A stretch of DNA of 23,669 bases from a virus, in the IMG/VR virus record IMGVR_UViG_3300031707_000176, positions 1-23,669 of that record. The stretch is one strand, 5' to 3'. Below are positions 13,276 through 20,905 of the stretch, in pieces. Made by a program: the position numbers and the translations under genes. The notes beneath the pieces are model-generated. The model was given only the letters and a program-made list of their open reading frames with translations, was not told where the DNA came from and did not search any database. Each line of letters starts with the position of its first letter. Position 1 is the first letter of the stretch.

Positions 13276-13674
13276 TCACCCGACTTTCAAAGGCATCTTG
13301 GCAGCGACAAGCTCGAGGAGCTCTTGAGTGGACTTCGCCGCTAGGTCCTGCATGGCCTGGTCGGACTCCTCGACGACCTTGACCTTGCCTATCGCTCTGT
13401 CGAGCAGGAAGGCCAGGCGGGCGAAGTCGCCGTGCTTGGCGGCCTGGGCGAAGATGGAGGCGATGGCAATCTCGAGCATCGGCGTCGAGGGCGAGCCGAC
13501 GGCGGCTTGGAGCTCGTCGCGGCTCATCCGAGCGTATTTGGAGACGAGAGCGCAGACCTCAAGCTGGGTCAGCGCGTGGATGCCGCGCAGTTCGGGAGGC
13601 AATGCTTTACGGCCGCCAGGGTTCCCTGACTGGCCCGGCTTCCACGGCGCGCCGATCTGTTTGGCAGCACTCAT
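13276..13674 (-). CDS. WKPGQSGNP-motif protein, possible small terminase
   Basis: 132 residues. The N-terminus carries APWKPGQSGNPGGRKALPPE (about 9-28), the signature of the DUF5681-type proteins often found just upstream of terminase large subunits. The body is helical, with QLEVCALVSKYARMSRDELQ (about 37-56) and a longer helical stretch to about 95, and the C-terminus is helical and acidic to basic. The start at 13674 is fixed by GGAGA seven bases upstream and by an ATGA overlap with the zinc-finger gene; the longer upstream reading is a shadow. Position and motif make a small-terminase role reasonable, but the family has no settled function and I cannot see a clear DNA-binding HTH. Confidence 0.65.
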   Translation of the reverse strand: MSAAKQIGAPWKPGQSGNPGGRKALPPELRGIHALTQLEVCALVSKYARMSRDELQAAVGSPSTPMLEIAIASIFAQAAKHGDFARLAFLLDRAIGKVKVVEESDQAMQDLAAKSTQELLELVAAKMPLKVG

Positions 13675-14111
13675 ACTGATTTCTCCGGTGCCGTCAGCAC
13701 GGCTTGCTTGCCGGTAAAGGCCTCCCAGCGGGCGAGGATGACCGTGCCCCCCTTGGGTTCGGCTCTGTCCCAGCGTACGTGACAGGACCGGCACAGCCAT
13801 CGGACGCGCAGAGGCTCAGAATAATTGAAGTGGGCGCCTTCGATTTTGCCATTGGCGCTGCATTCCTCGCAGCATGTCGGGCGGACGATGTTGCCAGCTT
13901 GGACGTGGTAGCGCAGCAAACTCTGGGCCGATCGAGCGGCTGTCGTAGCCTTGCGCTGGATCAACCGACCCGTCTTGGCCGCCTCATACTTGCAAGTGGT
14001 CGAGCAGAATCGCTGAGATAGGCGGTCCAACGGACCGAAAGTCTCGCCACACTTGTCGCACGCCCTGAACGTCTGCGGCTTCCGATTGCCTCCGATTTTA
14101 TTCGACGACAA
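13671..14111 (-). CDS. Two-module zinc-finger protein with a methyltransferase-like C-terminal tail
   Basis: 146 residues from a TTG at 14111 with AGGGGG seven bases upstream, overlapping the methyltransferase end by 14 bases. The first module is CDKCGETF with a following FCSTTC (Cys at about 18, 21, 36, 40). The second is CCEEC-x(7)-GAHFNY-x-EPL-x-VRWLCRSCH (about 80-111), the pattern of phage HNH-related zinc-binding proteins; the usual catalytic histidines are partly missing, so nuclease activity is doubtful. The tail VILARWEAFTGKQAVL (about 124-139) closely matches the methyltransferase C-terminus VILSRWEQFTGKGAQL, although DNA identity is lower. That suggests the gene ends in a captured or duplicated methyltransferase terminus. 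Confidence 0.65.
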   Translation of the reverse strand: MSSNKIGGNRKPQTFRACDKCGETFGPLDRLSQRFCSTTCKYEAAKTGRLIQRKATTAARSAQSLLRYHVQAGNIVRPTCCEECSANGKIEGAHFNYSEPLRVRWLCRSCHVRWDRAEPKGGTVILARWEAFTGKQAVLTAPEKSV

Positions 14112-15246
14112 GTTGAGCCCCCTTTCCGGTGAACTGTTCCCACCTAGAAAGGATGACGTCGCAGTACTTGGGGTCGATCTCCATGCCGAAGCAACGGCGC
14201 TGCGTTTTGTGGCAGGCAATGAGGGTGGAGCCTGAACCCAGGAACAAATCGATGATCTTGGCATCCTTGTCCGAATATTCGGTTATGACCCTTTCCAATA
14301 CCGTTACCGGCTTCTCGGTCGGATGAACGCGCTTCGTGTCGGCGTTGCGGGCCGTGAATCCGCTCCAGAGATGCCGGATTATGAAACGCCTATGATGATG
14401 GCGACTCCAGAGCATTTCAAAATGGTTGCCGGTCAGGCCATCCGAAGCTTCGGAACGCTTGTCCCAAACGATCCATGAACCGCCTGGAGGCAGGCGCGTA
14501 TGATACCAGTCGCCGCCCCACCAGAATTGTTCCTTTACTTCGTCGAACATGGCGATGATTGGCGCCGGGTCAAAATCCCTATCATCTCCTTCGACTGGAC
14601 GATAGGTCTTCGACTTCACCTTGATTTCGGCCATTTTTGTATAATCAGTATCCAGATGCATTCCGTAAGGAGGATCGGTGAAAACCATATCGGCCTTGCT
14701 TCCGCCCATGAGCCGCGCAACTTGCAGCACGTCGGTCGAGTCGCCGCATATCAGGCGATGGCCGCCAAGGAGCCACAAGTCCCCCGGCTTGCACCGCGTC
14801 TCCACGTTCTCAGGGACGGCGTCAGGATCCGTCAGGCCTTCAGGGGGCTCAGGCGTGGCGATCAGCGCCGCCAGGTCGTCGGCATCGAAGCCGATGCTGC
14901 CCAGGTCGAAGTCCATGGCCTGGAGGCTCTTCAGCGTCTCGTTGAGGATGCCTGCGTCCCATTCGGCGAGCTCGGCGGTGCGGTTGTCGGCGAGCGCGAA
15001 AGCGATAGCGTCGGCCCCCGTCAACTCCGTTCTCACGACGGCGATCTTCGGCCATCCAAGACTGCGAGCCGCCTCGAGCGTCCCATTCCCCGCGACAACG
15101 ACGCCCTTGCCGTCAACGACAATCGGCTTCTGCTGCCCGAACTTCGCCAGGCTCCCCTTGATCGCGTCAAGGTTCTTGACGGAATGCCGGCGAGCATTGG
15201 CGGGATCGAAGGCGAGATCGGCAATGGCGATCGTCTCGACGTTCAT
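14098..15246 (-). CDS. ParB-like domain fused to a DNA methyltransferase (DPPY type)
   Basis: 382 residues. Residues 1-90 form a ParB/Spo0J N-terminal-like domain (IADLAFDPANARRH at 7-20, KPIVVDGKGVVVAGNGTLEA at 40-59). Residues 150-382 form an amino methyltransferase: the catalytic DPPY motif at 191-194, HPTEKP at 308-313 and the S-adenosylmethionine-binding motif DLFLGSGST at 333-341. DPPY preceding the FxGxG motif indicates a beta-class N6-adenine or N4-cytosine enzyme. Such ParB-methylase fusions are known in phages and may protect phage DNA from host restriction or mark it for regulation or packaging; no cognate restriction gene is seen here. It begins the leftward late run with an ATG and a weak GAGG site, 24 bases from a good promoter. 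Confidence 0.9.
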   Translation of the reverse strand: MNVETIAIADLAFDPANARRHSVKNLDAIKGSLAKFGQQKPIVVDGKGVVVAGNGTLEAARSLGWPKIAVVRTELTGADAIAFALADNRTAELAEWDAGILNETLKSLQAMDFDLGSIGFDADDLAALIATPEPPEGLTDPDAVPENVETRCKPGDLWLLGGHRLICGDSTDVLQVARLMGGSKADMVFTDPPYGMHLDTDYTKMAEIKVKSKTYRPVEGDDRDFDPAPIIAMFDEVKEQFWWGGDWYHTRLPPGGSWIVWDKRSEASDGLTGNHFEMLWSRHHHRRFIIRHLWSGFTARNADTKRVHPTEKPVTVLERVITEYSDKDAKIIDLFLGSGSTLIACHKTQRRCFGMEIDPKYCDVILSRWEQFTGKGAQLVVE

Positions 15247-15878: not shown

Positions 15879-15959
15879 GCCGGTGTGGCAGGCAGGCGGC
15901 GGCGGGCACCGGCGATGAGAGGCGGGCTAACTTTACTATACCCTCTCTTACTGGTTAGC
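15879..15959. repeat. Convergent intergenic hairpins after the endolysin
   Basis: Three overlapping inverted repeats occur here: GCCGGTG/CACCGGC (15879-15885 and 15907-15913), GAGAGG/CCTCTC (15917-15922 and 15942-15947) and GCTAAC/GTTAGC (15926-15931 and 15954-15959). They lie between the end of the rightward endolysin and the end of the leftward 64-residue gene. No T-tract is present, so a bidirectional termination role is possible but unproven. Confidence 0.35.
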
Positions 15960-16153
15960 TACTGCACTCCCAAACGACCACCGTCTTGCCTTCGTGTTCG
16001 CGTTTCGATGTCGTCATAAATCGCTACGCTCGAATACTGAGTCAGCCAATTGAGAACGCACTTGCCATTGCCGAACTGGACGCCCTCGGCGACATGACCC
16101 GTCCCGCTGACCCCTGAGACGTCTACGTTTCGCACCAATTTGAATTGCCTCAT
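15959..16153 (-). CDS. 64-residue small phage protein (KLVRNVDVSG type)
   Basis: The protein starts MRQFKLVRNVDVSGVSGTGH and continues VAEGVQFGNGKCVLNWL, a pattern I recognise from many phage genomes as a small conserved protein of unknown function (K-x-x-L-x-R-x-x-D-x-S-G-x-S-G-T-G-x-V-A-E-G). The ATG at 16153 has GGAG upstream and overlaps the end of the 44-residue gene (ATGA). No catalytic motif is visible. Confidence 0.7.
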   Translation of the reverse strand: MRQFKLVRNVDVSGVSGTGHVAEGVQFGNGKCVLNWLTQYSSVAIYDDIETRTRRQDGGRLGVQ

Positions 16154-17649: not shown

Positions 17650-18131
17650 GTGGCAATCTTCAGATTGGAGTGGAAAGCCTGTAACTCGCGCCAACGGCGA
17701 CGGGCGGCTACGAATAGAAACTTAGCCGCGACTATACCAGCCGCCTTATGCCCGTCAACCGTGAAGATGGGCAAGCCCTGCGCCGACCACGAGAGCAGGC
17801 TGCTCGTCACCTGATTCGGCGTAATCCTGGCCCGCCATTGGCCGAGCTCGAGCTGGGCCATGGTCGCCTCGACGATCAGGAGCCGGGCGGGGTAGGCCAT
17901 CAGCCGCTGGATCTCCTTCTCGAAGCGTTCCCGCTCGGACCCGACGCAGAGGACCAGATCAGGGAGCGACTTCCTCTCGACGGCAACCTCGTGCTCGAGA
18001 CCCGCCACCGAGTAGTCGCCAGTCGGCAGCGAGCCGCGGACCACCGAGAGCGGCGCCAGGTCGAACGGGAGTTGCTCGCGGGTATCGACGACGGCGGTGA
18101 CGTCGGCGGGAATGAGGTCCTTACGGGCCAT
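17646..18131 (-). CDS. ERCC4/XPF-type nuclease
   Basis: 161 residues. The signature of the ERCC4 nuclease fold is complete: TAVVDTREQLPF (about 12-23, D16), GDY (38-40) and VERKSLPD (51-58), giving the canonical GDXnERKX3D active site with D39, E52, K54 and D58. The following helices (ERFEKEIQRLMAYPARLLIV) fit the fold. Phage members are likely structure-specific endonucleases acting on branched or flap DNA during replication or recombination. The ATG at 18131 has GAGG six bases upstream and lies inside the end of the 41-residue gene. No helix-hairpin-helix pair is visible, so targeting must come from elsewhere or from dimerisation. Confidence 0.88.
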   Translation of the reverse strand: MARKDLIPADVTAVVDTREQLPFDLAPLSVVRGSLPTGDYSVAGLEHEVAVERKSLPDLVLCVGSERERFEKEIQRLMAYPARLLIVEATMAQLELGQWRARITPNQVTSSLLSWSAQGLPIFTVDGHKAAGIVAAKFLFVAARRRWRELQAFHSNLKIAT

Positions 18132-18246
18132 CCACGACCTCGATCCACTGAGTCCCCTTATTGACTCCCTCCTGGGCGCCCCCGCCTTCATAGGTCACCG
18201 TGTAGGTGAACGAACTGGCAGGACCGTTGAAATATTTCTTGGGCAT
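18121..18246 (-). CDS. 41-residue unknown protein downstream of the repeat region
   Basis: The ATG at 18246 has AGGAG six bases upstream, placed right beside the repeat array. The protein reads MPKKYFNGPASSFTYTVTYE, then a Gly-rich EGGGAQEGVNK and an acidic WIEVVDGP end. It looks like a small beta-sheet protein. The following ERCC4 gene starts inside it. I do not recognise the family; translation may be affected by RNA pairing of the repeats that flank the ribosome binding site. Confidence 0.55.
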   Translation of the reverse strand: MPKKYFNGPASSFTYTVTYEGGGAQEGVNKGTQWIEVVDGP

Positions 18247-18256
18247 GAATATCTCC

Positions 18257-18427
18257 TGTCCCGGGCTGTCCCGGGCTTTTCGGGAAAACTCTCTTGGCAT
18301 ATGCGCATACTCATATATGACATAATTATCTTTAAAAGAGGTAAGGACACCCGGGACAATATAGTGATTCCTGTTGCTTAGGGTCGGGACGAGAGCCCGG
18401 GACAGGCCCGGGACAGGCCCGGGACAA
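18257..18427. repeat. Six-copy CCCGGGACA repeat region, origin-like or control element
   Basis: The motif CCCGGGACA occurs as three direct copies at the right (18396-18404, 18407-18415, 18418-18426, 11-base period), one single copy at 18350-18358 and two copies on the other strand at the left (TGTCCCGGG at 18257-18265 and 18267-18275, 10-base period). The two outer groups are inverted relative to each other and bracket an AT-rich core. It lies between the helicase gene and the 41-residue gene, which face the same way. Iterons flanking an AT-rich melt region would fit a replication origin; in RNA the arms could also form a long stem reaching the AGGAG of the next gene. Confidence 0.65.
18300..18336. 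repeat. Stacked perfect palindromes in the AT-rich core
   Basis: Between the repeat groups, TATGCGCATA (18300-18309), TCATATATGA (18311-18320), ATAATTAT (18322-18329) and TTTAAA (18331-18336) follow one another with single-base spacing. Each is a perfect palindrome. This is the most AT-rich stretch of the replication region and could be a DNA-unwinding element, a set of protein-binding sites or part of a promoter. Confidence 0.5.
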
Positions 18428-19852
18428 TTAAGGCTCACGTTTGAGCCTCCTGAGGTTGCTGGCTTCCTCTATTTTATCCAATCCTTCAGCATCCCTGCGG
18501 GTGAATCTCCGCTCGTCGGCGGTGCGTTCACGGATGCCGCAGAACACGTAAAGACGTTTTGTTTGGGAGGCATTCTTATCTTTTGTAATCGTTTGAAACT
18601 CCACCTTAATTTCTTCGCAAAGGAACCTTTTTTTAAGCAGCCTCTTACCAAAAGCTTGATGACGAGGGTCGTTGCCGAACTTCTCAACGACACGTTCCTG
18701 GAAGTGACTACGCAGGATATAGGCATCCTTGTTAACTAGGCCATCTATCCGCGGGACGATTACGTAATGGGACTCGATCAAGTCGAGATAATCGGCTTCG
18801 AACTGGTCGATAATGTCGTCCAGACCTTCCTTCTTGCAGGGGATTCGCAGCCCCTTCGGCAGCGCCTCATAGGCCGCCAGACAATGGCCGACAAAGGCCG
18901 GCAACTCCTTGGCGAGCTCGCCGCGGAAGTCCACCTCCCCCATCATCTCCGACGGGGGGACGGGGGCGACCCGGCAGTCGATGACCCGCAACTTTAGCGC
19001 CTCGTCATGCGGGATCTCAGGCGGGTCGTTGGAGAAGAGGAAGAAGAGGGCGTTGAGATTGGCGACGAATGCCTTCTCGTACTTCTCGCTGATCGAGTGC
19101 CGCCCGTCGCCAGTTGCCGCCTTGAAGGCGTCCGACCTTATAAACGAGGCTGGCGCCTCCTGAACGATACCGACCCGGCGACCGACCAGTTGGGCCTTCC
19201 AGTAGGAAGTCTTCAACTCCTCGCGGCCGAGGACGGCGAAGTTATCCCCAGACAGCACTTCGATGACCCAGGAGAACTGCGACTTGCCGGAGTCAGCCGG
19301 TCCCCAGACCCAGACGGCCTGCTTCCGGTCGGCGTCGGGGTCGAAGATGGAACCGATCCGGGCACAGAAGGCATCACTGTTGGTCTCGACCCGCGCCAGC
19401 ATCCCCGCCAACAGGGGGGCAAAGGCGGCAAGTTGCCCAGACGGGACGGTGACCGGGTCGAAGTCAAGGCGGGCCATGACGATGGCGGGGTCCGAGCGGA
19501 AGCCCACCGACTTGGGCAACTGGCGCATATGGGTCGTCTGATGCGCCCACGACCGGACGATGGCTAGGCACTTCTCATAGGGAACGTTGTAGTCGATGAG
19601 CGCCCCGGAGAAGTAAGAGACGTACTCCCGCAGGAGACCGGCGACGTACTCACGGCTGATGCGGACGGCGACCTGGTTGGCGTCCACCTTTAAGAGAATG
19701 GGAGCGCCAACGTCATCGACCTTGACGACCCTAATCGTGTGGGGCCAGGGGCCATGGCCCTTCTTGAGTTTCGGGCCGGCCTTCTCGCTCAGGAGTGCGC
19801 ACAGGTTCACCTCGATGACTCCCGCTGGTGTCTTCGCCCTTGACTTCTGCAT
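18428..19852 (-). CDS. SF3-type replicative helicase (primase-associated)
   Basis: 474 residues from the ATG at 19852, chosen because AAGGA lies five bases upstream; the ATG at 19882 has only a poor site. The Walker A is VWGPADSGKS (182-191). A Walker B-like strand RVGIVQEAP (226-234) supplies E232. The sensor region LFFLFSNDPP (269-278) has the conserved Asn of SF3 motif C, and an arginine (R289) in ALKLRVID is a candidate Arg finger. This is the pattern of phage D5/SF3 primase-helicases, here without the primase domain, which is encoded upstream. It should form a hexamer that unwinds the replication fork. The gene overlaps the primase by 122 bases in another frame and ends at the repeat region. 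Confidence 0.82.
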   Translation of the reverse strand: MQKSRAKTPAGVIEVNLCALLSEKAGPKLKKGHGPWPHTIRVVKVDDVGAPILLKVDANQVAVRISREYVAGLLREYVSYFSGALIDYNVPYEKCLAIVRSWAHQTTHMRQLPKSVGFRSDPAIVMARLDFDPVTVPSGQLAAFAPLLAGMLARVETNSDAFCARIGSIFDPDADRKQAVWVWGPADSGKSQFSWVIEVLSGDNFAVLGREELKTSYWKAQLVGRRVGIVQEAPASFIRSDAFKAATGDGRHSISEKYEKAFVANLNALFFLFSNDPPEIPHDEALKLRVIDCRVAPVPPSEMMGEVDFRGELAKELPAFVGHCLAAYEALPKGLRIPCKKEGLDDIIDQFEADYLDLIESHYVIVPRIDGLVNKDAYILRSHFQERVVEKFGNDPRHQAFGKRLLKKRFLCEEIKVEFQTITKDKNASQTKRLYVFCGIRERTADERRFTRRDAEGLDKIEEASNLRRLKREP

Positions 19853-20615
19853 CGATTTCCTTCCGTCCGCGGATTGCGCCATTACCTACAGCTTCACGCA
19901 CTTCATCAGCACCAAGGGTGATCGGGCTTCGCATGATCAGATCGATGATCTCGGGTTCGCTATAACCGCACTTCGTTAGATAGATGCCTATTTTGAAACA
20001 GGTGGTGTTACGCATCCCCTCCGGACAGCCGAAACGGAGGATCCCTTCGATCCACGACGGGACGAACTTGGCGGCCCGGTATTCGGCGTAGCTTCGCGGC
20101 GCCTGCGGCGGGGGAGCTCGATAGGTAGTCTGCTCATAGCCCGCATCGGTAACTGAAATGATCTCCTGACAAGGCCAGAAATATCGGGCGCCGTCCATAC
20201 AAGCCGAATCCGCCCCGTATTTCTCGATGTAAAACCGCATCGTATGCCGGTAGTCTTCCAGATTGGCGATCACTTCCTCAAAGCGCAGGACGACGCGGAA
20301 ACGGTCACAGGGCGGGGTCTCGCCCTTCTGTTTTTGGTGGCTCTTAGTCGTCCCGATGACGTGGGCGCAGTCGCACCAGAGATTGAGCGCTTGGTCGAGC
20401 GGCAGGAGACCATCATCGAAATCGAGGACGAGCAGGCGGGCGCCAAGGAAATACTTCTGCTGGCGGCGCCCGCCATCCCAGGTGCAGGACGACCATGTAA
20501 ACCGCTTGGCGCAGGCCGCGACCCGGTCCATCGACACGTTGGGAACGGCTATAAAACCGCTACCATATTTGTAGGTATTTCCTATATCAGTCGTATTGCG
20601 ATGATAGGAAATCAA
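19731..20615 (-). CDS. Archaeo-eukaryotic-type primase (AEP)
   Basis: 294 residues if started at TTG 20615. The frame is open to a TTG at 20687, and an ATG at 20531 is also possible. The upstream DNA is AT-rich and holds regulatory signals, so I prefer a start within it. Primase motifs are LLVLDFDDG (D65 and D67), TTKSHQK (H93) and the CDRFRVVL strand (R105, R107), with a likely third metal ligand in ACMDGARYF (D141). These match the DxD, sxH and hD motifs of AEP primases. The later WIEGILRFGCPEGMRNTTCF to IIDLIMRS segment resembles a PriCT-type C-terminal domain. It makes the primers for the helicase encoded next. The last 40 residues overlap the helicase start. Confidence 0.75.
   Translation of the reverse strand: MISYHRNTTDIGNTYKYGSGFIAVPNVSMDRVAACAKRFTWSSCTWDGGRRQQKYFLGARLLVLDFDDGLLPLDQALNLWCDCAHVIGTTKSHQKQKGETPPCDRFRVVLRFEEVIANLEDYRHTMRFYIEKYGADSACMDGARYFWPCQEIISVTDAGYEQTTYRAPPPQAPRSYAEYRAAKFVPSWIEGILRFGCPEGMRNTTCFKIGIYLTKCGYSEPEIIDLIMRSPITLGADEVREAVGNGAIRGRKEIDAEVKGEDTSGSHRGEPVRTPEREGRPETQEGPWPLAPHD
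20577..20612. repeat. Nine-bp inverted repeat, candidate operator
   Basis: ATTTCCTAT (20577-20585) and ATAGGAAAT (20604-20612) are perfect inverted copies separated by 18 bases, so the two half-sites lie about 27 bases apart. The right arm ends four bases before the -35 box of the rightward promoter, and a ribbon-helix-helix gene starts 100 bases further on, suggesting autoregulation. Confidence 0.5.
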
Positions 20616-20644
20616 TTGACTTGCCCTACGTGATGGATGATATT
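20616..20644 (+). promoter_or_regulatory. Rightward promoter of the recombination operon
   Basis: TTGACT (20616-20621, five of six to the -35 consensus) is followed after 17 bases by GATATT (20639-20644, four of six to the -10 consensus). It fits a housekeeping-sigma promoter whose transcript would start near 20651 and reach the GTG of the ribbon-helix-helix gene at 20711. Confidence 0.45.
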
Positions 20645-20710
20645 GGGACCGAATAGAAAACCTACGCCAATCATCGTTGGTCGTCAACCGCTACGAGGAA
20701 GGAGCTGAAT

Positions 20711-20905
20711 GTGGCCGGCAAGAAGGTGAATACAAAGAAAAACCCCAAAGGACTTCTCCACGTCCTCGTGGACAAGGGGGAGTTGAAAAAACTCCAGCAG
20801 GTGGCAGCCAACCTGGATATGACGCTCTCCAACTACGTCCGCCTATTGGTAAGCCAGCATCTCAGGACCCCGCTCAAAATCGAACTTTCGCAGAAGGCAT
20901 CTTAA
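20711..20905 (+). CDS. Ribbon-helix-helix-type DNA-binding protein
   Basis: 64 residues from GTG 20711, with GGAG six bases upstream. A basic N-terminus (MAGKKVNTKKNPKG) precedes a strand (LLHVLVD), then helix 1 (GELKKLQQVAANLD, about 23-36) and helix 2 after a turn (MTLSNYVRLLVSQHLRT, about 37-53). The strand-helix-helix order with T-L-S-N-Y-V-R at the start of helix 2 is the ribbon-helix-helix (Arc/CopG) pattern. Such proteins bind DNA as dimers through the paired strand. As first gene of the operon it is a good candidate repressor of its own promoter. Confidence 0.7.
   Translation: MAGKKVNTKKNPKGLLHVLVDKGELKKLQQVAANLDMTLSNYVRLLVSQHLRTPLKIELSQKAS

Follow-up and report, generated by a model that had tools for sequence, protein, structure and literature searches.

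Directly behind a helicase gene in the 23,669-nucleotide stretch of viral DNA analyzed here (IMG/VR record IMGVR_UViG_3300031707_000176; hereafter, the window), copies of one short sequence are arranged in inverted sets around AT-rich DNA. The question raised by this locus is what the repeats do. A preliminary description, made without database searches, had recognized in them the organization of a replication origin, and had put forward translational control through a folded RNA as an alternative. We report here a computational analysis of the array, of the genes that surround it and of comparable loci in other phages, prophages and satellites.

Organization of the Iteron Array

Exact counting located six copies of CCCGGGACA in the 23,669 bases of the window, every one of them inside positions 18257–18426. 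Two copies, on the minus strand, make up a distal inverted pair: the outer one (18257–18265) touches the Shine–Dalgarno sequence of a 41-residue gene, and the inner one (18267–18275) follows after a 10-bp step. The remaining copies are on the plus strand and comprise a central one (18350–18358) and a proximal tandem triple (18396–18404, 18407–18415 and 18418–18426, in 11-bp steps), the last of which is set apart from the helicase stop codon by a single base. The start-to-start spacings are 10, 83, 46, 11 and 11. The number of copies, their inverted, central and tandem layout and the 10- and 11-base spacing had all been described correctly; of the span then given to the array (18257–18427) the start holds, the end being at 18426, where the last copy stops.

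Two weak near-copies on the plus strand, each with one mismatch, lengthen the array: AGGACA (18344–18349), which lies 9 bp ahead of the central GGGACA and forms a tight pair with it, and GGGACG (18386–18391). A third one-mismatch match to GGGACA is GGGAAA at 18282. When the surrounding 300 bp were subjected to 1000 dinucleotide shuffles, the best 9-mer never reached more than two copies, vs. the six observed. The array is real and beyond chance.

Between the inverted sets lies an AT-rich core (18276–18349), a candidate melting region, which has 66% AT in a genome of approximately 60% GC. The perfect palindromes previously seen in this AT-rich DNA were confirmed: four 8-bp palindromes (GCATATGC, TATGCGCATA, TCATATATGA, and ATAATTAT) are present in the core, against 0.35 expected (P = 0.0006).

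Gene Neighborhood of the Array

The array is located within a series of minus-strand genes, the order being primase, helicase, array, 41-residue gene and ERCC4-type nuclease. The adjoining primase and helicase genes to which the preliminary description had referred correspond to positions 19731–20687 and 18428–19882, respectively. The former encodes a primase-like protein of 318 amino acids (phrog_2135 DNA primase, E = 6e-11), and its end overlaps the start of the helicase gene. On the opposite side of the array are the 41-residue gene (18121–18246) and the gene for the ERCC4-type nuclease (PF02732; 17646–18135), whose start codon overlaps the end of the 41-residue gene.

The helicase (484 amino acids), which we propose as the origin-binding initiator, matches DUF5906 (PF19263) above the cut-off (E = 4e-9) and, weakly, the SF3 helicase E1 of papillomavirus; it is D5/SF3-like. 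As most of the VapE proteins tested also score over the PF19263 cut-off, the protein can be placed in a wider VapE/DUF5906 group, and it is a D5/SF3-type initiator of the kind found among VapE, DUF5906 and P4-alpha proteins. When the window helicase was aligned with 21 VapE-type proteins, the resulting alignment, in which the VapE rows dominate, matched PDB entry 7pds, “similar to D. nodosus vapE,” with E = 3e-102. The C-terminal region of the helicase, where initiators of this type would have a winged-helix DNA-binding domain, gave no significant Pfam match. Both AlphaFold2 models obtained for the protein are of low confidence; the 150-residue model shows the order helix–helix–beta-hairpin. 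The Foldseek matches of these models were discarded as meaningless, the models being too weak for use.

Conservation of the Array in Close Relatives

Divergent relatives of the helicase and the primase were sought. The viral contigs yielded only two phages, both at >99%, and in the genome contigs no relative of either protein was found. Both relatives possess primase and helicase genes and carry the array unchanged; between the helicase stop codon and the beginning of the 41-residue gene, all three phages available, the window included, have the same DNA. Absence of the array from close relatives that retain the primase–helicase pair had been named beforehand as evidence against an origin, and the opposite was found, although this is a weak test, because both relatives are near-identical to the window. 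A search for a divergent relative of the window helicase with an array beside it found none, the only close DUF5906 relatives being the near-identical phages.

Among named phages, no match to the helicase was obtained at E < 1e-5. Of the named phages that have a related helicase, MW202458 comes closest (28% identity across 160 residues), and no repeat array is evident in its helicase locus. Phages with related terminases (40–75% identity) were also considered as comparison genomes and rejected, as they are either fragments or devoid of this helicase.

The relatives differ from the window elsewhere. A segment comprising a ParB-N/DNA methylase gene and a neighboring ORF (13590–15170) is missing from both of them, which represents a recent gain or loss, and a further segment of about 175 bp (15947–16121) is likewise missing from both. 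One relative (L065, genome G001) is a complete genome of 34.9 kb with ends that overlap by 357 bp. Only one repeat in it is denser than the array: an unrelated tract of ACGGGG/ACGGGT hexanucleotides, which lies outside the window, near the contig junction, and extends over several hundred bases (approximately 350–820 on the reversed strand).

Comparison With Known Replication Elements

The preliminary description knew of no described phage family with this motif. The exact 9-mer indeed seems new, and a literature search for GGGACA in connection with phage replication returned nothing relevant. The arrangement, on the contrary, matches that of the P4 crr and of SaPI/PICI origins and, as far as placement is concerned, that of the SCCmec Cch2 site.

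The annotated crr of P4, which is required in cis for replication, is located directly 3′ of the alpha gene and contains inverted sets of GGTGAACA; the alpha primase-helicase binds both crr and the P4 ori. As in the window, where one base separates the helicase stop codon from the array, short iterons ending in ACA are found immediately 3′ of a helicase gene, in inverted sets, with tandem steps of 9–11 bp and an AT-rich spacer. The two differ in the motif (GGTGAACA in P4, CCCGGGACA in the window) and in the distance between inverted sites (43 bp in P4, 77–86 bp in the window). In addition, P4 has primase and helicase fused, a duplicated crr and a separate ori, whereas primase and helicase are encoded by separate genes in the window.

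PICI origins are situated immediately 3′ of the rep initiator gene and have an AT-rich region between two iteron sets (PMC6092414), and the C-terminal domains of SaPI Rep and SCCmec Cch2 recognize repeats that follow directly after the genes encoding these proteins (PMC7581432). The window shares with SaPI/PICI origins both the position immediately 3′ of the initiator gene and the two iteron sets, here inverted, around an AT-rich region, in this case the 66% AT core (PMC6092414; PMC7581432). The comparison covers the arrangement; SaPIs and PICIs, whose Rep proteins are self-loading helicases, are satellite islands whereas the window belongs to a complete phage. The SCCmec Cch2 site resembles the window in having separate primase and helicase genes and repeats directly downstream of the helicase gene; it differs in consisting of three AAGTG direct repeats, inverted repeats being dispensable for Cch2 binding (PMC7581432). 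Replicons of the pRN1/BIP-1 type also have a cis element 3′ of a primase-polymerase/SF3-helicase gene; the likeness is one of placement, as that element is a large stem-loop and the window has iterons (PMC4234260).

Arrays Behind VapE and DUF5906 Helicase Genes

We scanned viral contigs for paired CCCGGGACA and obtained 64 stretches. Many of these look like chance matches or other repeats; two of them, L035 (71% GC) and L009 (46% GC), were informative, since in both a VapE helicase gene is followed directly by dense clusters of inverted GGGACA. The core common to these arrays and to that of the window is GGGACA. L009 has the same sequence as L097, a Muricomes prophage, and L097/L162 (Muricomes), L099, and L035 all have GGGACA behind a VapE helicase. 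In L009 (1060–1144) the iterons start within the last VapE codons and encode a tail rich in Gly-Thr-Thr, the array being partly coding.

As these leads had been found by their motif, loci were next chosen by the helicase protein instead. Sixty-three loci from viral contigs and 42 from genome contigs were reduced to 73 VapE loci upon removal of redundancy; they were counted as independent once DNA identity above 80% had been removed, deeper relatedness remaining among them. An array was scored when one hexamer was present six or more times, without overlap, between −50 and +450 of the helicase end, and 352 stretches from the same VapE loci were used as controls. Arrays were scored in 46 of the 73 loci and in 11 of the 352 controls (Fisher P = 5e-32), and the signal was maximal from 0 to +300 bp from the helicase end. 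The hexamers most repeated downstream of the helicase in the 63 viral-contig loci were GGAACA, TTACAA, GAACAA, GGACAA, GTGACA and similar ones, and the control stretches of these loci gave no such signal. The motifs vary between phages; ACA/TGT was contained in 27 of the 46 top hexamers vs. 23 of 352 in controls. GGGACA by itself is not general (at least four copies in three of 63 loci), and the placement rule became visible only once the motif was allowed to vary between phages.

A second survey was carried out with the Pfam model of DUF5906 on 398 genomes. It covered two bacterial classes, Bacilli and Bacteroidia. Thirty of 58 DUF5906 loci, a few of them VapE loci that are counted in both surveys, had an array, against four of 206 controls (P = 3e-19). 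By this test, a strong array was lacking in roughly half of the DUF5906 loci and in more than one-third of those with VapE.

Both motif orientations were present in 45 of 45 arrays examined. In 39 of 44 VapE arrays the inverted neighbors are 38–60 bp apart (41–48 bp in 33 of them), and tandem pairs are commonly 8–9 bp apart; L035, for instance, has GGGACA spacings of 42 (inverted) and 9 (pair). P4 shows these same spacings, with 43 bp between inverted sites and a 9-bp pair in crr, and 43 and 10 in ori. The window departs from this module of an inverted site, 41–48 bp and a tandem pair of 8–10 bp: its inverted sets are 77–86 bp apart with tight steps of 9–11 bp, and its 46-bp step connects two copies that point the same way.

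Among the VapE loci, resemblance in the bases preceding ACA tracks identity of the C-terminal region after correction for ATPase identity (partial rank r = 0.17, permutation P = 0.002), the reverse partial correlation being 0.08 (P = 0.07). The effect goes in the expected direction, and it is small.

Dense GGGACA/TGTCCC was also observed at three loci selected by the motif. In L016 (10528–10900) it is found right behind a Prim-Pol/AAA_25 gene, and in L010 (499–660) and L062 (908–1240) inside genes that match phage replication initiation proteins.

Alternative Functions of the Array

Operators typically contain inverted and tandem repeats, and a small protein encoded nearby (20711–20905) has a weak repressor-family match (phrog_876, E = 0.008). 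A phage or host transcription regulator, such as this protein, might bind CCCGGGACA and control the downstream genes. We consider this very unlikely: a scan for sigma-70-like promoters, restricted to that type, found none in or beside the array, which is located inside the operon behind the helicase stop codon, rather than where a divergent gene starts near 20690, and the survey ties such arrays to helicase genes.

Control at the RNA level would require that the outer arms pair in the helicase–nuclease transcript and mask part of the AGGAG of the 41-residue gene, coupling expression of the nuclease to some signal. The potential for pairing over about 20 bases, predicted to reach the AGGAG, is borne out by the sequence: complementarity between the outer arms extends over 18 nt (89%), and they would pair beside the Shine–Dalgarno sequence. 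Folding of the leader RNA, proposed earlier as a check, gave −76 kcal/mol against −55.6 for shuffles (z = −5). The 41-residue gene is, moreover, probably coding, since an insertion in its version from the relative G002 (at 18173–18175 of the window) stays in frame and extends the product to 77 amino acids. A strong hairpin is nevertheless a by-product to be expected whenever a GC-rich DNA motif is repeated in inverted orientation; motif copies are likewise inverted in P4 crr and in the VapE arrays, which lack the 41-residue gene, and repeat steps of 9–13 bp with many pairing registers fit protein binding better than one RNA fold. The three sequences, being identical in the array, offer no covariation, and an Rfam scan at the array gave no match of weight and no family above threshold. 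We therefore regard control through RNA as highly improbable.

That the array is a selfish or structural repeat with no role in replication, made of transcript-end hairpins or generated by slippage, is hardly credible: CCCGGG is self-complementary, which makes 6-bp hairpins with 4–5-base loops possible between neighboring copies, but a terminator scan found no terminator-like site at the array, tandem slippage does not yield inverted sets, and arrays whose motifs differ recur at this position in dozens of independent loci.

A Candidate Origin of Replication

The position of the array, its anatomy and the survey of related helicase loci selected by protein support the organization of a replication origin originally proposed. 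A search for the motif in other phages, one of the checks that had been suggested, also found GGGACA behind VapE helicases. The GC skew, the other test named beforehand, lent no support: cumulative skew shows no switch at the array, its maximum being about 2.3 kb away. We give this little weight because the skew is weak in this small phage.

The array is placed directly behind the helicase gene, is invariant in two relatives and has counterparts behind many VapE/DUF5906 helicases and P4 alpha. We infer that 18257–18426 is, very probably, a replication origin or a cis-required region like the P4 crr, with the neighboring DUF5906 helicase as the initiator that would bind the iterons, melt the core and load itself. 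The helicase, encoded immediately upstream, would use a DNA-binding domain at its C-terminus to bind the CCCGGGACA iterons, and two helicase oligomers would form on the inverted sets. The helicase would next melt the core with its AT-rich palindromes and load itself, and the neighboring primase would start the new strands. Protein binding, melting of the core and initiation at the array are predicted from these comparisons. Most likely, the array is an origin of the P4/SaPI type in a new phage lineage, and a concrete replication mechanism would be assigned to a lineage without a close named relative.

The wider placement rule is a more interesting result than a single origin. The survey suggests that the origin may generally lie immediately 3′ of the VapE/DUF5906 helicase gene, a layout for which satellites (P4, SaPI) have been the main examples. 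Tentatively, and with somewhat less than even confidence, we propose that VapE/DUF5906 helicases across Bacillota, Bacteroidota and other phages and prophages have their own origin directly behind the gene, with short, mostly NNNACA iterons in a nearly fixed geometry, that the C-terminal domain and the bases before ACA constitute a readable recognition code, and that dense GGGACA may mark origins for unrelated initiators too. If this is true, the origins of very many uncharacterized phages could be called from sequence, and, should the rule be general, not only origins but also replication specificity and the compatibility of phages, prophages and satellites would become predictable in the same way.
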